Shown: in pieces, positions 2,595-22,540 of the stretch
Layout: each line of letters begins with the position of its first letter
Numbering within the stretch: position 1 is the first letter of the stretch
IMG/VR virus record: IMGVR_UViG_3300013372_002243
Coordinates: 1-24,016 of that record
Reading direction: 5' to 3' (one strand)
From: a virus
Length of the DNA stretch: 24,016 nucleotides
Made by a program: the position numbers and the translations under genes
The notes under the pieces: model-generated
The model's database searches: none
What the model was told of the DNA's origin: nothing
Seen by the model: only the letters and a program-made list of their open reading frames with translations

Positions 2595-4145
2595 ATGGCG
2601 AAGATGAAAACGGCCAAGGCGGCGGTGGAGCCTGTCGAGTTGGAAGAGTTCGCGATTGAGATCGAAAATATCGGCCCGGTCGAGCGGGCTTCGATTCCGC
2701 TGCGACCCGGACACGTCACAGTGCTGACGGGGTCCAACGGGGCGGGCAAGTCGGAGACGCTGGCGGCTGTCACGGCGTTGGCCGTCGGCGGCACGTCGCT
2801 GGAGGCCCGTGACGGCACTGAGGGCGGGTCTGTCTCCGGGTTGGGGATTACGATCAAGGTCGGACGCAAGGGGCAAAACCGGCGGACTGGAGAGCTGGAG
2901 GTGCTGGCGGTGGAGGACGGGTTCGACTTGTCCAAGTTCGTCGATCCCGGCCTGAAAGACCCGGTGGCGGCGGACAAGCAACGGATCAAGACGCTGGCGA
3001 CGCTGCTCGGCGTCAAGGTGACGGTCGAGGCCGTGAAGGGCTTGATCGGCTCGGGTGATCTTTACGAACAGAACGTGACGGACAAGACGGCGAAGCTGGC
3101 GGCGGTGTCGGCGGTGTCGGCGGTGGACTTCGTGGACGGCGTCAAACGTGACTTGGAGTTCGGGGCACGCGAGATCGAAACGGAGGCGGCACGGGCGGAA
3201 CAGGACGCGGTGACGCTCGAAGGGACGCTGGCCGGGGTCGATCTGACGGCGGAGAGCGACGGCGACGTTCTGACAAAGCGGTGGACGGAGGCGGCTCAAA
3301 ACTCCGCTCGGCTCCGGGAACAGGGGCGGCTGGCGGTCGAGGCGGCACGGATCGCGGAGGATGCTCGGGCCGTGGTAGAGTCCGGTGAGGTCGTGACAGT
3401 GGAACAACGACAGAATGCGTTCGAGGAATATCATGCAAAGTGGAGCGAGGCCCGGATCCGGCTGATAGCGGCGGAAAAAGCGCAGGATGAAGCCTTGGCT
3501 ACGGAGCGAGGGTGTCGTCGCGACTTGGAGGAGTTGGAGCGACTTCTCAAGGACGCGAATGTGCGGCGGGAGCGATTGGACGCGGCAAAGGCCAAACTGG
3601 TCCCGTCGGTCGTTCCTCCGACTGAGGCGGAACTGGACGCGGCCTCGGTGGCGGAGATCGCGGCGGAAACGGCGGTGATCGCGGGAGCCAAGATTCGGGA
3701 CGGCAAAGCGACGATGGAACGGGCGACGAGGGCGAGGATCAAGGCGTCGTCGCTGGGTTGCGACGCGGTCGTGATCCGGGACGCGGCGGCGAAGGTGGTC
3801 TGGCTGCTGGCGGGGCCGATCAACGCGGTCGGGTGCGGAGTGCAAATCACGAACGATGGGCGGCTGGTCGTGCAAGGGCATCGACGCGGGCAATGCTTCA
3901 TGTCGGACTTGAGTCCGGGCGAGCGATGGTCGATTTGCATGAAGTTGGCGGCATCGGTGTTCAAGTCGGCTGGAGTCCCCGCTTTGCTGGCTGTGCCACA
4001 AGAAGCGTTCGAATCGCTTGATTCATGGAACAGAAAGATATTCCATGACGCGGTGGCTGAGTCCGGGATGATGGTTGTCACGGCGTTGGCGAGTCAGGAC
4101 TTGGAGTCCGCGTATTGTCCAGTCGCCGCAACGGTGTTAGAATGA
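2595..4145 (+). CDS. SMC/RecN-like ABC-class ATPase
   Basis: A 516-residue protein with the head-coil-head organisation of SMC, RecN and RecF-like DNA-repair ATPases. Walker A is GSNGAGKS (residues 46-53). A long charged helical middle (about 170-350, with LRREL/RLLKDA-type heptads) fits a coiled coil. Near the C-terminus an ABC signature LSPGER (439-444) is followed by LLAVPQEAFESLD, which occupies the Walker B/D-loop position. There the usual Asp-Glu reads Gln-Glu, so the Mg2+-coordinating Asp appears replaced while the catalytic Glu is kept. Start: ATG 2595 with GGAAGGGG 7 nt upstream; a TTG at 2523 is less likely. A role in phage recombination, together with the RusA-like resolvase, is inferred. 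Confidence 0.82.
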   Translation: MAKMKTAKAAVEPVELEEFAIEIENIGPVERASIPLRPGHVTVLTGSNGAGKSETLAAVTALAVGGTSLEARDGTEGGSVSGLGITIKVGRKGQNRRTGELEVLAVEDGFDLSKFVDPGLKDPVAADKQRIKTLATLLGVKVTVEAVKGLIGSGDLYEQNVTDKTAKLAAVSAVSAVDFVDGVKRDLEFGAREIETEAARAEQDAVTLEGTLAGVDLTAESDGDVLTKRWTEAAQNSARLREQGRLAVEAARIAEDARAVVESGEVVTVEQRQNAFEEYHAKWSEARIRLIAAEKAQDEALATERGCRRDLEELERLLKDANVRRERLDAAKAKLVPSVVPPTEAELDAASVAEIAAETAVIAGAKIRDGKATMERATRARIKASSLGCDAVVIRDAAAKVVWLLAGPINAVGCGVQITNDGRLVVQGHRRGQCFMSDLSPGERWSICMKLAASVFKSAGVPALLAVPQEAFESLDSWNRKIFHDAVAESGMMVVTALASQDLESAYCPVAATVLE

Positions 4146-4153
4146 CGTCGCTT

Positions 4154-4243
4154 GCCCCAACCATTCAAGCACACAAAACATCGACCGCAAGGTCGTCTGA
4201 GCCGTCGAACGCCACCTCTTGGTTGGGGCAGGGCGTTCGACGG
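4154..4243 (+). ncRNA. Pseudoknot-capable leader / terminator-like structure before HNH gene
   Basis: The 119-nt gap between the ATPase stop and the HNH start holds three perfect inverted repeats. Stem A pairs GCCCCAACCA (4154-4163) with TGGTTGGGGC (4220-4229). A small hairpin pairs CGACC (4182-4186) with GGTCG (4191-4195) around GCAA. Stem B pairs CCGTCGAACGCC (4202-4213) with GGCGTTCGACGG (4232-4243). The 3' arm of A lies inside the loop of B, so both stems together give a pseudoknot. Stem B is followed by TCTCTTT, so on its own it resembles an intrinsic terminator. This could be an attenuator or a structured RNA linked to the homing gene; the function is inferred. Confidence 0.5.
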
Positions 4244-4264
4244 TCTCTTTGTGGAGTCGCTGAC

Positions 4265-4801
4265 ATGGCACGACTGAGCGTTGAGGAACGGTTCGTGAGC
4301 CGGGTTGTCAAGTCTGACGGATGCTGGTTGTGGAGCGGTCGAAAGGGGACTCACGGCTACGGAGTGTTCCGGATCAAGTGGACGGACTCCGGGGTTCTGT
4401 CTCATCGTCACGCTTACGAGGTCGCCAACGGACCGATCCCGGACGGGCTCTGCGTCTGCCATCGCTGCGACGTTCCTCTGTGCGTCAATCCGTCTCATCT
4501 GTTTCTCGGGACGTCGGCGGAAAACAACGCTGATCGAGTCGCCAAGGGCCGGTGTGCGTGGGGTGATCGTAACGCGGCACGTAAGCATCCAGAGTCGATT
4601 TGCCGTGGTGAAAAGGTCGGTAGTGCGGTGTTGACGAATGCGATTGTCTATGAGATCCGGAAAAGGTTCGCCTCCGGCGAGACGAAACGGGAACTGAGTC
4701 AGAGTATGGGGATTCCGTACTCAACTGTTCGCAACGTGGCCGACGGGAAGACTTGGAAACATCTACGTGCCGGTGACGGCGACAGTGCTTTGATCGAATG
4801 A
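4265..4801 (+). CDS. HNH homing endonuclease (HNH_3 type) with C-terminal HTH
   Basis: A 178-residue free-standing phage HNH nuclease. The beta-beta-alpha-metal core is visible: SHRHAYE (His47/His49), then CVCHRCDVPLCVNPSHLFLGT with Cys65, Cys68, Cys73, Asn75 and His78, followed by the typical SAENNADRVAKGR helix. Residues about 125-170 (IRKRFASGETKRELSQSMG, then TVRNVADGKTWKHL) form a helix-turn-helix, presumably for target recognition. The start at ATG 4265 has GGAG 8 nt upstream. The frame extends back to an ATG at 4142, but that stretch codes through the structured leader and adds no domain sequence. Such genes invade intergenic sites and spread by cutting unoccupied alleles. Confidence 0.88.
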   Translation: MARLSVEERFVSRVVKSDGCWLWSGRKGTHGYGVFRIKWTDSGVLSHRHAYEVANGPIPDGLCVCHRCDVPLCVNPSHLFLGTSAENNADRVAKGRCAWGDRNAARKHPESICRGEKVGSAVLTNAIVYEIRKRFASGETKRELSQSMGIPYSTVRNVADGKTWKHLRAGDGDSALIE

Positions 4802-13001: not shown

Positions 13002-13191
13002 ACTGGATCGGGAGTTCGAGTTCATTGAACGGAAGCGGGACTGCCTCGCGGCGATTGAGTCGGTGAAGCCGCACGCGGAAGGATGGTCCTGCGAGACGTG
13101 GGCAGCGGAACTGTTGAAGCTGTTCGGGGCAGTGTCGGTTTCGGTGTCTGAGGATGGCGAAAACGGGGCCGAGGTGGAGGTCGTCGTATGA
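12847..13191 (+). CDS. QueD-like (T-fold) paralogue; candidate 7-carboxy-7-deazaguanine decarboxylase (DpdL-like)
   Basis: A 114-residue protein resembling 6-pyruvoyl-tetrahydropterin synthase/QueD but reduced: FEAWHLWADAPEKHEYLRSR then HRHLFKVRIAW matches the metal-site region (His of FEAWH, HRH in place of HGH), and SCETWAAELLKLFG matches the usual PTxEN helix. It lacks the catalytic Cys next to the HGH motif. A genuine QueD lies 0.5 kb downstream, so this copy must do something else. Published work on phage 7-deazaguanines predicts a CDG decarboxylase named DpdL; I propose this as a candidate by context, not by proof. It starts at ATG 12847 inside the transglycosylase gene and stops in ATGA with the transporter. 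Confidence 0.6.
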   Translation: MNNSTGSTRTRVWVTLEFEAWHLWADAPEKHEYLRSRHRHLFKVRIAWTVSELDREFEFIERKRDCLAAIESVKPHAEGWSCETWAAELLKLFGAVSVSVSEDGENGAEVEVVV

Positions 13192-13682
13192 GCTGGGCGG
13201 TCGTGGGGTTCTATCTGGCGGCGGCGGTGGCGGCGAATGGTCTCGTGGCGATCTTCGGCCCGTGGGTCCTGCCGCTGACGGGCGTGGTCCTGATCCCGTT
13301 CGACATGACGGCTCGCGACGTTCTTCACGAGCGATGGCGAGGGCCTTGGCTCTGGCCTCGGATGATCGGCCTCGTGGCGGCTGGCTCGGCGTTGTCGATG
13401 GTTGCGGCTCCGGCGGCCGTGTGCGTGGCAAGCGGGGCGGCGTTCCTCGTGGCTGGCGTGGTGGACGCGGTGACGTACCGGCTGCTTGAGGGGCGGCCGA
13501 AGCTGGTGCGAATGAACGGATCAAACGCGGCGGCGAGCGTGGCGGACTCGGTGGTGTTCCTGACGGTGGCGTTCGGCGGAGTACTGGTGCCTGTCGTCGC
13601 GTTTCAGGTGGCGGCGAAGGTGTGCGGCGGGTTCGTGTGGTCGCTTGTGATGGTAGGATGGAAGTCGAAGGGGACGGAATGA
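13188..13682 (+). CDS. VUT-family (YhhQ-like) queuosine-precursor transporter
   Basis: A 164-residue integral membrane protein with about five to six hydrophobic segments (near residues 4-22, 25-37, 58-76, 78-97, 117-137, 138-157). Family-like positions are LIPFDMTARDVLHERWRG between early helices and NGSNAAASVADSVVFLTVAFGG in the fifth, corresponding to the conserved Arg-Asp and S..aDS..F features of VUT/YhhQ proteins. These import preQ0/preQ1-type 7-deazaguanine bases across the inner membrane. Its place between a QueD-like gene and QueD fits salvage of precursors for DNA modification. ATGA overlaps on both sides show tight coupling. The substrate is inferred. Confidence 0.75.
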   Translation: MSWAVVGFYLAAAVAANGLVAIFGPWVLPLTGVVLIPFDMTARDVLHERWRGPWLWPRMIGLVAAGSALSMVAAPAAVCVASGAAFLVAGVVDAVTYRLLEGRPKLVRMNGSNAAASVADSVVFLTVAFGGVLVPVVAFQVAAKVCGGFVWSLVMVGWKSKGTE

Positions 13683-14107
13683 TAACAGCAACGCGACGGA
13701 TACAATTCTGCTCGGGGCATCGGGTGTTCGGCCACGAGGGGCACTGCCGGAACATGCACGGACACAATTACGTGGCGTTCCTTACGGCGGCTGCGAACTC
13801 TCGCGAACTCGATGGCGTGGGCCGCGTGGTGGACTTCTCGGTCCTGAAAGAGCGGGTCGGCGGGTGGATAGACGAAAAGTGGGATCACGGGTTCATCGCG
13901 TGGGTGGGCGACGCTGAGGCGGTGGAGGCTGTGCGAAGTGTCGGAGGCTCGAAGCTGTTCCAGTTGCCGAATAACCCGACGGCCGAGAACATGGCGGACT
14001 ATCTTCTGCGGTGGGTCGGCCCGCTGGTGCTGGCTGGCTCGGGTGTCGAGCTTGTCAAGGTCGTGTTGTGGGAGACAGAAAACTGCCATGCTGAGGTGAC
14101 GCTATGA
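13679..14107 (+). CDS. queD: 6-carboxy-5,6,7,8-tetrahydropterin synthase QueD
   Basis: QueD converts 7,8-dihydroneopterin triphosphate into 6-carboxytetrahydropterin, the second step towards 7-deazaguanines. All motifs are visible in 142 residues: the zinc ligands His14 (CSGHR) and His27/His29 in CRNMHGHNY, the catalytic Cys23, VVDFSVLKERV, the Asp69-His70 pair in WDHGF, the PTAENMADYLL helix and the terminal WETENCHAEV with Glu132. Length and order are normal. ATG 13679 overlaps the transporter stop, and its own TGA overlaps the QueE ATG, so it is the middle of a tightly coupled operon. Confidence 0.93.
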   Translation: MITATRRIQFCSGHRVFGHEGHCRNMHGHNYVAFLTAAANSRELDGVGRVVDFSVLKERVGGWIDEKWDHGFIAWVGDAEAVEAVRSVGGSKLFQLPNNPTAENMADYLLRWVGPLVLAGSGVELVKVVLWETENCHAEVTL

Positions 14108-14712
14108 CTTACAGGGTGAACGAGGTCTATCGGTCGCCGCAAGGCGAGGGCGGGCGAGTGGGACACGACAGCGTGTTCCTTCGGTTCACTGGCTGCAATC
14201 TGCGGTGTGCGATGGAGCCGGGGCCGAAATCGCCGGGCGGGTTCGACTGCGACACGGAGTTCGAATCCGGGCGGACGATGACGCTCGGCGATCTGGTGTC
14301 GTGGGTTCGTGAGGAAGCGGGCGAGGTGTGCCGCTGGGTGGTGGTGACAGGCGGGGAGCCTGCGCTGCAGTTGGACGCGGATCTCGTGACAAGTCTGCAC
14401 GATGCGGGATTCCTGATCGCGGTGGAGACGAACGGGTCTAAGGCGTTGCCGGACGGCATCGACTGGATCACGGTCTCGCCCAAGGTCGCGGAACACGCGA
14501 TCCGCCAGCGGACGGCGACGGAGGTAAAGTACGTGCGAGGCTACGGACAGGCGTTGCCGGAAACGGTGGTTGAGGCGGAGCAGTATTACATTTCGCCGAC
14601 GTTCGCCGGGCTGGAGCCCGATCCGCGTGCGGTGGCATGGTGCGAACAACTGGTGAAGGGGACGAAGTGGAAACTCTCGATGCAACAACACAAACTGCTC
14701 GGCCAGCGGTGA
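14104..14712 (+). CDS. queE: 7-carboxy-7-deazaguanine synthase QueE (radical SAM)
   Basis: QueE is a radical-SAM enzyme that rearranges 6-carboxytetrahydropterin to 7-carboxy-7-deazaguanine. Seen: the N-terminal YRSPQGEGGRVGHDSVFLRF substrate/SAM region, TGCNLRC with Cys31 and Cys35, then a third Cys in FDCDTEF (Cys49), and GGEPALQLD at 83-91. The cluster motif is therefore C-X3-C-X13-C instead of the classical C-X3-C-X2-C, meaning an insertion between the second and third ligand; expanded spacings are known in some QueE proteins. 202 residues is a normal size. The start ATG 14104 overlaps the QueD stop. Confidence 0.92.
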   Translation: MTYRVNEVYRSPQGEGGRVGHDSVFLRFTGCNLRCAMEPGPKSPGGFDCDTEFESGRTMTLGDLVSWVREEAGEVCRWVVVTGGEPALQLDADLVTSLHDAGFLIAVETNGSKALPDGIDWITVSPKVAEHAIRQRTATEVKYVRGYGQALPETVVEAEQYYISPTFAGLEPDPRAVAWCEQLVKGTKWKLSMQQHKLLGQR

Positions 14713-15539
14713 CGGAAGTCTCGTGGAAAGATGTCGTGGCGAGGATTGAGACGAAGCTCAGCGGGTTCAGCCGGGTCTACGGCGTGCCGACAGGCGGGGT
14801 GATCGTCGCGGCGATGTCGGGCCGGATGGTTCACGCGGTGAGCGAAGCGGACGTGATCGTGGACGATCTCGTGGATTCCGGGGCAACTCGCCAGCGGTAC
14901 GCGAACACGGGGAAGCCATTCGTCGGACTGTGGGACAAGAAGGACGGGAGCGGGGACGAGCGGCTGGGCTGGATCAAGTTCCCGTGGGAAGTCCAACACG
15001 CGCCGGAGGACGCTGTCGTCCGGCTAATCGAATGGTGCGGGGAAGATCCTCGGCGGGACGGTCTGCTGGAGACGCCGAAGCGTGTCGTGAAGGCGTTCCG
15101 AGAGATGACGAGCGGCTACGCGGACGATCCGGCTGTGATTCTGTCGAAGACCTTCGACGAGAAGTGCGACGAGATGGTGGTCGTTTCGGGGATCTCGTTC
15201 ACGTCGTTGTGCGAACATCACCTCCTGCCGTTCACGGGGACGGTGGACATTGGCTACGTGCCGGGGAAGGTTGTGGGGCTGTCCAAGCTGGCCCGGCTGG
15301 TGGACTGCTTCTCAAGACGGTTCCAGATTCAAGAGCGGTTGACGGCTCAGATCGCGGACGCAATCGATAACGCCTTGGACGCGAAGGGCGTGGCCGTGGT
15401 GGTTCGGGGCCAGCACGCTTGCATGAGCTGCCGGGGTGTCCGGAAGGCGGACGCAACGATGGTCACAAGTGCGATGCGGGGAATCCTGATCGGGGACGCT
15501 CGGGCACGGTCGGAGTTCTTGGCGTTGTGCAGAGGCTGA
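14709..15539 (+). CDS. folE: Phosphoribosyltransferase-like domain fused to GTP cyclohydrolase I (FolE)
   Basis: Two domains in 276 residues. Residues about 10-95 resemble a type I phosphoribosyltransferase: GVPTGGVIVAAM, then the PRPP-binding motif DVIVDDLVDSGAT (48-60). Residues about 96-276 are a type I GTP cyclohydrolase: RDGLLETPKRVVKAF, SLCEHHLLPFTG with Cys168 and His170/171, SKLARLVDCFSRR, and ACMSCRGV with the distal Cys ligand. FolE makes dihydroneopterin triphosphate from GTP, the entry step for QueD. The start is uncertain: GTG 14709 gives a GTGA overlap with QueE, while GTG 14667 (with GAAGGGG upstream) or ATG 14637 would extend the N-terminus. The fusion partner may serve base or nucleotide salvage; that is inference. 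Confidence 0.88.
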   Translation: MTEVSWKDVVARIETKLSGFSRVYGVPTGGVIVAAMSGRMVHAVSEADVIVDDLVDSGATRQRYANTGKPFVGLWDKKDGSGDERLGWIKFPWEVQHAPEDAVVRLIEWCGEDPRRDGLLETPKRVVKAFREMTSGYADDPAVILSKTFDEKCDEMVVVSGISFTSLCEHHLLPFTGTVDIGYVPGKVVGLSKLARLVDCFSRRFQIQERLTAQIADAIDNALDAKGVAVVVRGQHACMSCRGVRKADATMVTSAMRGILIGDARARSEFLALCRG

Positions 15540-18597: not shown

Positions 18598-20436
18598 ATG
18601 GCAACCGAAGAACTGGTCGAGTCTGCGTGGGGCGACATGGTCCCGTGGGAAGACTTCCCGCAAAACGATTGGGACTCCGCTACCGGCTCTGTGCCCGGCG
18701 GTGCGTTCGCGATCATCGAAGACCGGAGCGACGGAAAGTTCCGCCCGGTCTACCAATTCGAGTCAGACCTTCACCGACAACTGGCGGCCGTGCGTCGGGT
18801 GATCGGCCTGAACGAGCTGACGGAAGCTGTCACGACGGCGTTGCGGGTCTACATCTTCGGTAAGGGCATCGAGGTCGGAGTCCGGGCGGCGGCTCGGAAG
18901 GATGTTCCGCCGGAGCTGGTGGACGACGTGAAGCGGATCGTGGACCGGTTCGTCGAAACCAACGGGTTCATCAACGGGCTGGACACCGAGATTCACCAGC
19001 GGAGCCGGGACGACGGCGAAGCGTGCTGCCCGATTGAGCGGGACGGCAACGACATCGTCTGCGAGCCGATTGAGACGGTACAGCTCACGGAGCCGATGGC
19101 GGGACGGAGCCTTGAGCCGTGGGTCAGTCATACGTTCGGAATCGACTTTGAGTCGTTCGTCCCGTCGTGGTCGTTCGGCGTGCTGTCGGATTTCAAACGT
19201 CCGTCTCGGGCGAAGGGCTACCACGTCGTCTACGACGGAGCCGGTCGCGATTACGAGTTCTTTCCTCCGGAGCGGTTCGTCCATATCAAGCGGAACGTCC
19301 CGCGATCCGCCAAGCGTGGGGTATCCGACTGGCTGGCGGTACTCGACCGGATCAACCGGGTCGGAAAGCTGGTTCGCAACCTGTCCCACGGTGCAGCTCT
19401 CCAGTCGGCGATTGCGTGGATTGAGGAGTACGCGGCGGGGACTCCGTCGTCTCAGATCATGGGTTCGGGATCTCCCGGGATCGGCGGGAACGTCCAGAAC
19501 GGCCGGAACGGCAACCGGACGGAGCGGACCGTCACCTATCGTGAAGGGTCGATTCTTCGGGTGGGGGTAGGCAAGCAGTACAAACCCGGCCCGCTGGGAG
19601 CGGAGCGGAACGCAGGCTTCCAAGTGGTTGAGGAGATGCTGGAGCGGCTGATCGGAACGCGGTGGCTGATGCAGTACGCGATGATTAGCGGCGATCCTTC
19701 GAACAATAACTTCGCGTCGTCGCTGGTGGCGGAGGCCCCGTTCGTCAAGGCCCGTGAGGCGGATCAACAGTTTTACGGCGGGGCGTACAAGTCGCTGCTG
19801 TGGAAGGTCGTTCGGTACGCGGATCGGCTCGGGTGGCTCGACACGCGGGGGATCCCGTGCGACCGGCTGGAAGAACTGATCGACATCACGGTGGACTTCA
19901 CGAGTCCGGCGAGCCGTGATCGGTCGCAGCTTGTCGATCAATTGGTGAAGGAGGTCGCGCTCGGGGCGACGTCGCTTCGTACGGCCTCGGTGGAACTCGG
20001 TCGTGACTACGAAGAGGAGGTCGCAGCCGGTGCGGCTCCGGCGGTGGCGGCTGGCGGTGGCGGATTCGGTGGACCGATTCCGGGCATGGGTGGCGATCCT
20101 TCAACGGCGACGGAGGGGGGTGATCTTGTCTCTGCGGGAGGTGGTGAGATGTCGGGGCTATCCGCCCGGCAATTCGACCGGAACACGAGGGCGATCAATA
20201 AGGCGTTGGAGGCGTTCATCGCGGGCGGCTCCAGAGTCATCGCTAAGGGCACGCTGACGGCGTTGGGCGTCCCGGACGCAAAGGCGGAGGAGTACTTGAC
20301 CGACGCGGCCGACGGAGCGGTAGACGCTCCAGAACTGAGCGACACGGAACAGGCGGCGGTCGGTGCGGCTCTCGAATCGGTGGAGACGACCGAAGAGGCG
20401 TTGCAGGTCTTGCGGTCGATCCGGGATTACCCGTGA
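18598..20436 (+). CDS. Portal protein
   Basis: The portal is a dodecameric ring at one head vertex through which DNA enters and leaves. This 612-residue protein follows the terminase and shows the portal-like layout: an N-terminal region (residues about 45-100, LHRQLAAVRRVIGLNELTEA), a beta-rich core with KGYHVVYDGAGRDYEFFPPE and ERFVHIKRNVPRSAKRGVSD, a helical stem (ERLIGTRWLMQYAMISGDPS), then a basic-helical crown (PFVKAREADQQFYGGAYKSL, RDRSQLVDQLVKEVALGATS). Residues about 475-520 form a Gly/Ala-rich linker before a helical tail. ATG 18598 lies behind its own promoter. The family call is by order, size and motifs; there is no catalytic site to check. Confidence 0.85.
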   Translation: MATEELVESAWGDMVPWEDFPQNDWDSATGSVPGGAFAIIEDRSDGKFRPVYQFESDLHRQLAAVRRVIGLNELTEAVTTALRVYIFGKGIEVGVRAAARKDVPPELVDDVKRIVDRFVETNGFINGLDTEIHQRSRDDGEACCPIERDGNDIVCEPIETVQLTEPMAGRSLEPWVSHTFGIDFESFVPSWSFGVLSDFKRPSRAKGYHVVYDGAGRDYEFFPPERFVHIKRNVPRSAKRGVSDWLAVLDRINRVGKLVRNLSHGAALQSAIAWIEEYAAGTPSSQIMGSGSPGIGGNVQNGRNGNRTERTVTYREGSILRVGVGKQYKPGPLGAERNAGFQVVEEMLERLIGTRWLMQYAMISGDPSNNNFASSLVAEAPFVKAREADQQFYGGAYKSLLWKVVRYADRLGWLDTRGIPCDRLEELIDITVDFTSPASRDRSQLVDQLVKEVALGATSLRTASVELGRDYEEEVAAGAAPAVAAGGGGFGGPIPGMGGDPSTATEGGDLVSAGGGEMSGLSARQFDRNTRAINKALEAFIAGGSRVIAKGTLTALGVPDAKAEEYLTDAADGAVDAPELSDTEQAAVGAALESVETTEEALQVLRSIRDYP

Positions 20437-20461
20437 GGCGTTGAACACGAAAGGGACGGCG

Positions 20462-20707
20462 ATGGCGACGGATGCTGAGTGCGGAGAGATCGGAAACGCT
20501 GGCGAGGCGACGGCTAGGCGGCGGTCTTCCGGTGTGATCAAACATAATGGCTTCGCGGCCTTCCGGCGGCATGAGTCGGCGGACGTCTGCCCGTACCCGT
20601 CTGGCGGGAAGACCTCGCAGGAGAGACAGTGGTGGATGCACGGTTTCATAGCGGCGCAAGTGGTGGCGAGCTGTCGGGCGATGACGCTGGAGGAGATGCT
20701 CCGGTGA
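20462..20707 (+). CDS. Small Rmf/CrpP-like protein
   Basis: ATG 20462 follows GAAAGGG at 8 nt. The C-terminal half (NGFAAFRRHESADVCPYPSG, then ERQWWMHGFIAAQ) resembles the Rmf/CrpP fold (the CP-Y/F ... R..W..G+ pattern), small basic proteins related to ribosome modulation factor that recur in phage genomes. Rmf itself dimerises ribosomes; whether the phage form touches ribosomes is unknown. The first 30 residues are Ala/Gly-rich. Its location between portal and minor head genes is unusual for a translation-related protein. Its TGA overlaps the GTG of the next frame. Confidence 0.52.
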   Translation: MATDAECGEIGNAGEATARRRSSGVIKHNGFAAFRRHESADVCPYPSGGKTSQERQWWMHGFIAAQVVASCRAMTLEEMLR

Positions 20708-20895
20708 AATGGCTCGGGTCAGACCTGACGAACGAAAATCACTCGACCCCGTTGAAGCGGCTGGTCAATCCGCTGATGCGAGCCCTGCTAGGGTGGCACG
20801 TTGCGAGCGTGATCCGAGTCGAGCCAGACGGAGTGGCTCGATTCGAGCGGTATGTGCTGAGGCGGTGTTGCGTAGCTGGGGGGTCGCGTGGCTGA
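20704..20895 (+). CDS. Small hypothetical protein, 63 aa
   Basis: It starts at GTG 20704 in a GTGA overlap and ends 8 nt inside the next gene. The product (MKWLGSDLTNENHSTPLKRL then VNPLMRALLGWHVASVIRVE) looks like a plausible basic helical domain, followed by GVARFERYVLRRCC. Another frame across this region (from 20709) is Arg/Ser-rich and looks like a shadow. No family is recognised; the gene is supported by coupling and composition only. Confidence 0.48.
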   Translation: MKWLGSDLTNENHSTPLKRLVNPLMRALLGWHVASVIRVEPDGVARFERYVLRRCCVAGGSRG

Positions 20896-22540
20896 ACTCG
20901 AAGACCGAATGCAACGTGAGGCGAAGCTGGCGGCGTTGCTGTCCCGTGTGGGGGCGAACCAACGGCGTGAGCTGGAGAAGCTGCTCGGCAATCCGCCGGA
21001 CATCCGGAACGTCCCGGAAACGTGGTGGGACGATTCCCGAAAGGAAATCGAAGAGGTCTTGATCGCGTTGCTTCTACTGACGTTCGCGGCGTCGGCGTTC
21101 GCTCACGGGCTGGACAAGGTGAGAGCGGCGGCACGGGCGGAAGCGTGGGCGACACGGACGGGGGCGAGGATCGCGAAGGAGATGGTCCGGAACACGCGGA
21201 CGGGGCTTCGTGTGTCGCTGCGTGGAATCGTCGTGGGCGGAAAGCCGGTGAGTCTGGCGGATCTCCGGCAAGTGACGGTGCGATGGCTCGGCCCGGCCCG
21301 GTGGTCAAATGTCGCGACGACGGAGACGACGCGGGCGCAACACTTCGGCTCGGAATACGGGGTCGAAGAAACCGTCGGGCTGAGCAAGGACGACTATTGG
21401 GTGACGTCCGGGGACGCGAAGGTCTGCCCCGTCTGTGCCCCGCTGAACGGCACGACGCGGCCGGTGTGGTCCCGCAAGTTTCCGGGTGGGCCTCCGGAAC
21501 CGCACGTGAACTGCGTTCTGCCGGGGCAACTGGTGAACGTGCCGGGGTCAATCATCGCGGCGGCCAAATCGTTCTATGATGGACCGAGTGTTGAGATACG
21601 ACTTGCGAACGGGAGCGTCCTGTCCGCCACCAAGAATCACCCGGTACTGACTGACAAGGGATGGGTCGCGGCGGGACTGCTCGACGAAGGCCGCAACGTA
21701 TTCAGCAGCCTTCACGGTGAGCGGGTCAGTTCGGCTATCAACCCAGATGATGATAATCGACCAGCCGTTGTCGAGGAGATATTTGCAACGCTCCGGATGA
21801 CTGGCGAGATGGCGGCCGGAGGCGTGCCAGTTACCTCCGAAGATTTCCACGGCGATGGGGAGTTCCTTCACGGCGAAGTCGAGGTTGTACGGCCCAACGG
21901 ACTTCTGCTGGGTGAACGCGACGCCGGAGACGGCGAGCAACTCTACGAATCGTTGCTCCAGCGGAGACGAACGGGAGCCGGTTCGTTCGTGAGTGGAGGA
22001 ACGCCGGGACTTCTCGGTGGCGGTGACGACGCGGCCACGGGCTGCGATGTGTGCGGGAGCGACTTGGGATCGGCGTTGAGCCTCGGTCATGCGGCTCCAC
22101 TTGACGGACTCCGACTCAGACTGATTGCGGAGCGGGACGCATTTCTCTACCAGATGGCGGCGAATGACGGCTCGGGACACTCCGGCCGAACGCGACAAGG
22201 ACAACTCGGACTCGCCAGCGGAATAGCGACTCGCAATCGAATCGGCGTCTACGAGGATGATCCGCTTCTTTCCGGGCTGTCGAGGTCGAACGAAACCGTT
22301 GCGCTTCATCAACCCGTAGAACCAGACGGGACGGCCTCCGGCCTCTGGAGCGAGTTTGTCAACAGGTTCGCCAGCGAGGTAGCGACTTCCGAAGTGGTCG
22401 AGGTCAATCATCGTCGGTACAGGGGCCATGTTTACGATCTCCAAGTGAGCGGGGACGAGCTTTACATTTGCGGCGGCGTCGTGGTTCACAACTGTCGCTG
22501 CTACATATCGTATGCGATGGCTCCGGTGAAGTCACGCTGA
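20888..22540 (+). CDS. Minor head (SPP1 gp7/Mu F-like) morphogenesis protein, interrupted by an intein
   Basis: A 550-residue precursor. Residues 1-208 and 536-550 are the host protein: helical start, TTETTRAQHFGSEYGVEETV, and the Cys-Pro-X-Cys-like metal site KVCPVCAPLNGTTRPVW ending PEPHVN, which continues after the intein as CRCYISY. Joined, this gives the HxNCRC signature of the phage head morphogenesis (gp7/F) family, 223 residues long. These proteins sit inside the head near the portal and assist assembly. The start is GTG 20888, overlapping the previous small gene by 8 nt. Without splicing the metal site would be destroyed, so excision is presumably required for function. Confidence 0.85.
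   Translation: MAELEDRMQREAKLAALLSRVGANQRRELEKLLGNPPDIRNVPETWWDDSRKEIEEVLIALLLLTFAASAFAHGLDKVRAAARAEAWATRTGARIAKEMVRNTRTGLRVSLRGIVVGGKPVSLADLRQVTVRWLGPARWSNVATTETTRAQHFGSEYGVEETVGLSKDDYWVTSGDAKVCPVCAPLNGTTRPVWSRKFPGGPPEPHVNCVLPGQLVNVPGSIIAAAKSFYDGPSVEIRLANGSVLSATKNHPVLTDKGWVAAGLLDEGRNVFSSLHGERVSSAINPDDDNRPAVVEEIFATLRMTGEMAAGGVPVTSEDFHGDGEFLHGEVEVVRPNGLLLGERDAGDGEQLYESLLQRRRTGAGSFVSGGTPGLLGGGDDAATGCDVCGSDLGSALSLGHAAPLDGLRLRLIAERDAFLYQMAANDGSGHSGRTRQGQLGLASGIATRNRIGVYEDDPLLSGLSRSNETVALHQPVEPDGTASGLWSEFVNRFASEVATSEVVEVNHRRYRGHVYDLQVSGDELYICGGVVVHNCRCYISYAMAPVKSR
21512..22492 (+). mobile_element. Intein (327 codons) in the minor head gene
   Basis: Protein-splicing (Hint-fold) signatures bracket the insertion. 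Block A is CVLPGQLV with Cys1 at 21512-21514. Block B is NGSVLSATKNHPVL with the TxxH pattern (Thr40, His43). At the C-terminal end RGHVYDLQVSGDELYICGG matches block F, and VVVHN is block G (penultimate His326, Asn327 at 22490-22492), followed by Cys+1 (TGT at 22493) of the extein. No LAGLIDADG or HNH motif is visible in the sense frame. Instead the middle carries a nuclease gene on the opposite strand. The insertion site is the conserved Asn/Cys junction of the metal-binding signature, typical of inteins targeting invariant sites. Confidence 0.88.
21548..22429 (-). CDS. Antisense homing endonuclease inside the intein: two HTH-like segments plus Vsr/DUF559-like nuclease
   Basis: A 293-residue protein on the minus strand, entirely within the intein. 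ATG (complement of 22427-22429) has GGAG 9 nt upstream; the next ATG is at 22411 and a GTG at 22489. Residues about 8-50 and 60-105 are two HTH-like segments (LDHFGSRYLAGEPVDKLA; DADSIASRYSAGESELSL then SAGVSRAVIRRHL). A basic linker (MTEAQRRSQVAPAHIAARGR) follows. Residues about 156-230 are a Vsr/DUF559-type PD-(D/E)XK nuclease: SPLEQRFVELL (Glu158), VGPYNLDFAV (Asp184), LPIAVEIFGGNWH (Glu195, His202), then HPERCKYLLDNGWSIIIIWV. Vsr-like (EDxHD) nucleases are known homing enzymes. Unlike ordinary intein endonucleases it is not in frame with the splicing domain. Confidence 0.85.
   Translation of the reverse strand: MAPVPTMIDLDHFGSRYLAGEPVDKLAPEAGGRPVWFYGLMKRNGFVRPRQPGKKRIILVDADSIASRYSAGESELSLSRSAGVSRAVIRRHLVEKCVPLRNQSESESVKWSRMTEAQRRSQVAPAHIAARGRVVTATEKSRRSSTHERTGSRSSPLEQRFVELLAVSGVAFTQQKSVGPYNLDFAVKELPIAVEIFGGNWHASGRHLASHPERCKYLLDNGWSIIIIWVDSRTDPLTVKAAEYVAAFVEQSRRDPSLVSQYRVILGGGQDAPVRKSYLNTRSIIERFGRRDD

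Follow-up and report, generated by a model that had tools for sequence, protein, structure and literature searches.

A stretch of viral DNA of 24,016 nucleotides (IMG/VR record IMGVR_UViG_3300013372_002243, positions 1 to 24,016; the window hereafter) most likely carries a mobile intein with the gene of its homing endonuclease on the intein's own complementary strand. We put the probability of this reading at roughly 0.9. Read from the head-gene mRNA, the element would be a compact Hint domain of about 110 residues in two parts, with a long linker between them that has no function of its own, and its motifs and fold suggest that it splices itself from the minor head protein. An antisense transcript, translated from a Shine-Dalgarno sequence and ATG within block F, would yield a Vsr/EDxHD-type nuclease with two helix-turn-helix (HTH) units. 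This enzyme would cut head genes that lack the intein, at the HPx/CRC codons, and the element would be copied into the cut gene as the break is repaired from a phage that carries it. The layout may go back to a free-standing nuclease gene that stood antisense beside the head gene and came to lie within the intein.

A Hint intein interrupts the minor head gene

The plus-strand ORF at 20888-22540 has 550 codons and is MuF-like minor head protein at both ends, with an intein between them. The N-extein (20888-21511, plus strand) belongs to a MuF-like minor head (head morphogenesis) protein and ends in PPEPHVN; the C-extein CRCYISYAMAPVKSR with its stop codon (22493-22540, plus strand) aligns with the empty allele of the sister phage L130. 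The Phage_Mu_F match was weak (Pfam E=0.0017, under the cut-off). Comparison of the whole head ORF with PHROG yielded the head protein phrog_15127 at 8.3e-23, and head morphogenesis families were also matched.

The intein itself occupies 21512-22492 on the plus strand, between HVN and CRCY, and comprises 327 residues from Cys1 to Asn327. It sits at the HPxCRC motif of the MuF-like gene. Its N-terminal Hint part (residues 1-68, 21512-21715, plus strand) starts with CVLPGQLV and contains the block B motif TKNH at 21629-21640, and its C-terminal part (residues 287-327, 22370-22492, plus strand) contains HVYDLQ (block F) and VVVHN (block G), followed by the +1 Cys. The residues looked for in a class-1-type Hint intein are present: Cys1, block B TxxH, the C-terminal HN and the +1 Cys. 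The Pfam Intein_splicing score passed the curated threshold (E=2.4e-10, 40.9 bits against a cut-off of 35.8). Across 48 aligned inteins, T40, H43, V307 and N327 were invariant. RecA inteins were matched in the comparison with PDB sequences, and Foldseek with the intein model returned the Mtu RecA inteins with a probability of 1.00. By motifs and predicted fold, 21512-22492 is a class-1-type Hint intein and would be expected to splice. This agrees with the initial annotation, which had placed a Hint intein at exactly these coordinates within the minor head gene.

The AlphaFold2 (AF2) model of the sense product was confident mainly at residues 1-68 and about 287-327, which are the two Hint halves. 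Mean pLDDT per block was 85-98 in the N-terminal part and about 90-98 in the C-terminal part. Residues 156-274 had pLDDT values mostly below 50 and are predicted to be largely disordered. Pfam detected no nuclease in the sense body of the intein. The same-frame endonuclease of canonical inteins is therefore missing here, just as had been proposed from the sequence.

The complementary strand encodes a Vsr/EDxHD-type nuclease

A gene of 293 codons runs along the minus strand at 21548-22429. Its product has an HTH unit at residues 10-43 and another at 62-95, then a helical linker and a Vsr/EDxHD-like PD-(D/E)XK core at residues 137-266, approximately. The gene starts with an ATG opposite the block F His codon, and its TGA stop (21548-21550, minus strand) lies opposite a Ser codon, TCA, in the N-terminal Hint part. 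The gene thus overlaps both splicing halves. The initial annotation had described this ORF, with two HTH-like segments, a Vsr/DUF559-like core and both of these end points, and each of these elements was recovered in the sequence, the Pfam matches or the structural model.

Separate searches with the 293-aa protein and with the intein gave nuclease-like and Hint matches, respectively. For the 293-aa protein, Pfam E-values were 2.2e-5 for MTES_1575, 6.6e-4 for DUF559, 1.3e-3 for HTH and 1.7e-3 for Vsr. All four matches are weak and under their cut-offs, but consistent with one another (24.9 bits against 38.2 for MTES_1575, 20.0 against 20.6 for DUF559 and 18.6 against 27 for Vsr). The Vsr chain 1cw0 in the PDB was matched at 2.3e-3. 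These single-sequence matches were too weak to decide the identity of the nuclease. Therefore, family evidence was sought. A profile of the nuclease family found 3hrl, Vsr and 3r3p, the last at 0.0031. The active-site stretch (21824-21958, minus strand) is conserved in the family alignment. In this alignment of 43 members, D184 (21878-21880), E195 (21845-21847) and H202 (21824-21826) were invariant and E158 (21956-21958) was kept in at least 90%, which bears out the four catalytic residues that had been picked from the window alone; some wider relatives differ here. The AF2 model of the nuclease had a mean pLDDT of 89 and showed two units of three helices each and a nuclease core of the alpha/beta type. 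Its top Foldseek matches were I-Bth0305I (3r3p) and Vsr (1cw0), with a probability of 1.00 and E-values of about 0.003-0.01. Family alignment and predicted structure indicate that the protein is a nuclease of the Vsr/EDxHD type, with the homing endonuclease I-Bth0305I as its nearest fold.

The nuclease start lies within block F

The ATG of the nuclease (22427-22429, minus strand) is complementary to CAT, the codon of His306 in block F. Nine nucleotides before it lies the Shine-Dalgarno sequence GGAG (22439-22442, minus strand), complementary to CTC CAA, the Leu-Gln codons of block F. In 30 of 38 relatives with the His retained, GGAG or GAGG was present 4-15 bases upstream of the start, where 6.6 would be expected if the same peptide were written with the codon usage of the exteins. 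The block F Leu was written as CTC in 35 of 48 inteins, compared with 222 of 1296 in the exteins (p=2e-16), and the His as CAT in 33 of 38 compared with 136 of 269. Where the block F His has been lost, a start with a Shine-Dalgarno-like sequence was often seen nearby. A promoter search found no convincing sigma-70-like promoter near the nuclease start. From the conserved ribosome-binding site and start we infer that the nuclease is expressed independently of the head gene.

The two-strand layout is conserved among relatives

With only the minus-strand protein as query, 59 IMG/VR loci and 121 phage records were retrieved. The matches listed in phage records fell mainly in genes annotated as head morphogenesis, minor capsid or MuF proteins, or as hypothetical. 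Searching with the intein led to the same phage groups, on the opposite strand. A scan of species genomes added one relative, and an alignment-based rescan of viral contigs recovered the same loci as the single-sequence scan.

A first set of 65 loci consisted of the 59 IMG/VR loci, five isolates and the window. In all 65, the frame codon-aligned antisense to the nuclease, which is the head frame, was 100% open across the nuclease match, and it sat in ORFs of 343-1311 codons. Neither of the two remaining antisense phases was fully open in any of the 65. Nine and 16 further loci were likewise open, giving 90 of 90 intein-nested relatives, some of them near-duplicates. Whether other inteins in minor head genes carry the same antisense protein had been left as a question by the initial annotation, and these relatives answer it in the affirmative. 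Nuclease GC ranged from 0.36 to 0.68 across the 90, and the head frame was fully open at low GC (0.36-0.45) as well. In the sense ORFs of the relatives, the N-terminus of the intein follows HPx, or a counterpart of it such as DYN, and its C-terminus precedes C(R)C. Nested cases occur in phages of Gordonia, Salmonella, Escherichia, Vibrio, Pseudomonas and Haemophilus and in metagenomes.

As a chance control, neighbour genes were examined. Codon-aligned antisense was open over 210 codons in 43 of 251 segments (17%). Such openness is not rare by chance, so that the window by itself would be no proof; the conservation in relatives is. Free-standing relatives were also compared. In two of close kin, from Acinetobacter phage P1068 and its IMG/VR sibling L135, where the nuclease gene lies beside an intact, intein-less head gene, openness was 0.48 and 0.22, and in a distant Rhizobium phage enzyme the frame was likewise not kept open. 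Because the frames of free-standing relatives are closed, openness is tied to nesting and not to the nuclease sequence. Taken across the relatives, the comparison indicates that the minus-strand ORF is a conserved arrangement and not a chance ORF.

The free-standing genes of P1068 (L123, 2881-3774) and L135 are convergent with the head morphogenesis gene and overlap it slightly. A gene of this type, already antisense to its target gene, is a possible ancestral state.

The initial annotation had held that the minus frame should not be interrupted where the splicing motifs are intact. This was true of nearly all relatives, but the metagenomic loci L005 and L021 have a stop codon in the nuclease while the head frame is still open. 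Beside a conserved family and empty alleles, these stops match the decay expected of homing endonucleases and are no counterevidence. Several relatives lack the GNWH motif, with GGGWACT in Jerseyvirus and VELT...GRY in the Haemophilus-phage type, and these members may lack activity or may use another active site. In the subfamily L124, L128 and L136-L146, VELT...GRY replaces EIFGGNWH and is conserved among diverse phages, which would possibly point to a different active site rather than to decay. In L002 (near 915) and L129 (Rhodococcus phage REQ3), intein residue 1 is apparently not Cys, with the junctions HPG/VAFG and HPN/AVLEG. These two inteins are perhaps degenerate or of a different splicing class.

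In the record of Escherichia phage Snoke (L120, 2090-3949) the intein is annotated and the antisense gene is not. The full-length antisense gene was absent from the annotation of the other intein-bearing records compared, too. Probably, the antisense nuclease has been overlooked in many genome annotations.

Both strands are under coding constraint

In the codon-aligned phase, antisense stops arise only from the Leu codons TTA and CTA and the Ser codon TCA. All three can be replaced by synonymous codons, and this phase therefore permits both readings. Among 1814 nuclease Leu and Ser codons from 56 loci none was TTA, CTA or TCA, where 239.5 were expected from neighbouring genes; since the loci lack independence and chance alone leaves 17% of ordinary 210-codon segments open, this count is an argument at the level of the family.

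The positions of the differences between relatives were analyzed along the ORF. In the extein and at both Hint ends, they concentrate at sense position 3. In seven of eight bins of the intein body, in contrast, sense position 1 (position 3 of the nuclease codons) varied more than sense position 3. Amino-acid identity in those bins was 0.36-0.70 in the nuclease frame versus 0.20-0.49 in the sense frame. The first body bin, around block B, was constrained in both frames. Pairs of close relatives revealed the same position pattern; between L120 and L152, four changes fell in the nuclease frame versus 11 in the sense frame. The sense frame, too, is conserved in parts of the body, for example at VPVTSEDFHGDG, and this motif lies opposite the nuclease active site. 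The substitution pattern indicates that the nuclease is under purifying selection.

The intein is present, absent and shared as expected from homing

The sister phage L130, with flanks 90-92% identical to those of the window, has the empty site PPEPHVN|CRCYISY, a precise in-frame absence of the intein. No copy of the nuclease was found elsewhere in its 57.9-kb record. Among Jersey-like phages, the intein-containing region of the query was mostly covered in 53 of 351 records, and in Salmonella phage 5sent1 the flanks matched at 99% with exactly the intein missing. The Salmonella phages demigod and sam have exteins that are 91% identical and inteins that are 100% identical. Between Salmonella phage demigod and E. 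coli phage Snoke, identity is 69% in the exteins and 96% in the inteins. Mobility and horizontal spread of the intein are well supported by these comparisons, and where the intein is found, where it is missing and how alike its copies are would fit homing. Distances of nuclease, Hint part and extein were only weakly correlated and carry no weight in this argument. A candidate transfer between L033 and L038 was set aside; the L038 extein looks frame-broken.

Alternative explanations

The minus-strand ORF could simply reflect GC-rich coding; the sense intein would then be the real gene, and its middle a degenerate linker or a sense domain that has escaped recognition. The chance control shows how often codon-aligned antisense is open in GC-rich phages, and the sense conservation around VPVTSEDFHGDG would also suit this reading. 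However, the frame is just as open in the relatives of low GC, the three stop-making codons are wholly avoided, and in the body the variable codon position switches to that of the nuclease, with higher identity in its frame. The antisense product has nuclease homology and a confident fold, whereas much of the sense body is predicted to be disordered, and the conserved sense motif sits opposite the nuclease active site. A by-product of base composition is already contradicted by these data and we regard it as extremely unlikely.

Recent spread, purifying selection between close relatives, a frame open in nearly all of them and a window copy that keeps every catalytic residue argue against a decaying nuclease in an intein that is inherited, or transferred by ordinary recombination only. 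This is very unlikely for the window, even though the stops in L005 and L021 and the altered catalytic motifs of Jerseyvirus and others are what such decay would leave. Also improbable, if a shade less so, is a real nuclease with a task other than homing, such as a Vsr-like repair, packaging or exclusion enzyme sheltered by its place in the intein. The similarity to Vsr and DUF559 would allow it, and nuclease genes near head genes can generally serve packaging or competition between phages. Against such a task speak the same intein site in the same kind of gene, the close free-standing case adjoining that very gene, and the homing endonuclease as nearest fold. Presence and absence among near-identical phages, together with inteins more alike than their exteins, are signs of homing. 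The intein with a homing nuclease on its complementary strand is thus the reading we prefer.

Relation to known mobile elements

As known so far, the nuclease of an intein is a domain fused to it. The element of the window resembles canonical LAGLIDADG and HNH inteins (PI-SceI, PI-PfuI, the Mtu RecA intein) in its Hint domain, its conserved site in an essential gene, a nuclease between the splicing halves, empty alleles and mobility. Unlike in these, the nuclease is a separate protein from the opposite strand, its gene overlaps both splicing halves, and the sense middle is free of a nuclease. Vsr-like homing endonucleases in the 'fractured genes' of split inteins were reportedly described by Dassa et al. 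in 2009, and I-Bth0305I (PDB 3r3p) is said to be an intron-encoded EDxHD enzyme, attributed to Taylor et al. in 2011. Both share with our nuclease the type of fold and motif, an N-terminal DNA-binding part, a phage host and the association with splicing elements. To our knowledge these enzymes are encoded by separate genes between the split-intein halves or inside introns, and none is nested antisense in a continuous intein. Here, in contrast, the nuclease is nested antisense within one continuous intein.

The Vsr/EDxHD homing enzyme families have been reviewed (PMC3943268). Nearest in logic among the literature searched is the ShiLan insert, where a phage methylase gene conceals an HNH endonuclease out of frame and no splicing domain is present (PMC11855218). 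It is likewise a frame-open insert in a phage gene with the nuclease in another reading frame, spread by homing (PMC11855218). In ShiLan this is an alternative frame of the same strand; the window has the opposite strand and a Hint domain and thus falls outside the ShiLan type. A 2025 preprint on actinobacteriophage inteins of 'non-canonical architecture', cited in PMC11855218 for overlapping reading frames, may cover the Gordonia MuF case, to judge from its title. That title does not extend to the Salmonella, Escherichia, Vibrio, Pseudomonas, Haemophilus and metagenomic cases. This preprint aside, a partial literature search found no precedent for an antisense nuclease nested in an intein. 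The parts, Hint inteins and Vsr/EDxHD homing enzymes, are known, and the layout itself is without precedent in the literature searched.

With only slightly better than even confidence, we favor a broader view. The relatives would form a widespread, undescribed class of mobile inteins with splicing protein and homing nuclease on complementary strands in the codon-aligned phase. Block F would double as ribosome-binding site and start codon, and the class would probably derive from a free-standing antisense gene beside the head gene that was nested into the intein. One short stretch of DNA would then encode both halves of a selfish element, and with splicing and nuclease made from opposite strands, the dose, timing and structure of the nuclease would be uncoupled from the host protein. 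As a natural example of long antisense coding with full overlap, the family is also unusually clear: selection can be seen as switching strands along one piece of DNA. The rule that permits it is visible in three avoided codons, and a splicing motif would serve also as translation start. The two-strand model can be tested in cultured Salmonella and E. coli phages.

Other genes in the window

Just upstream of the head gene, at 20363-20707, the window encodes a small protein that weakly resembles ribosome modulation factor (RMF; 6.3e-5, under the cut-off). At 13188-15539 lie genes for a Vut_1-type transporter, a PTPS (QueD-like) protein, a radical SAM (QueE-like) protein and a GTP cyclohydrolase I that has an extra N-terminal part. 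This looks like a set for 7-deazaguanine (queuosine-type) synthesis, perhaps for DNA modification. An HNH_3 endonuclease gene at 4115-4801 (Pfam 3.3e-13) gives this phage another homing-type nuclease, unrelated to the antisense one.
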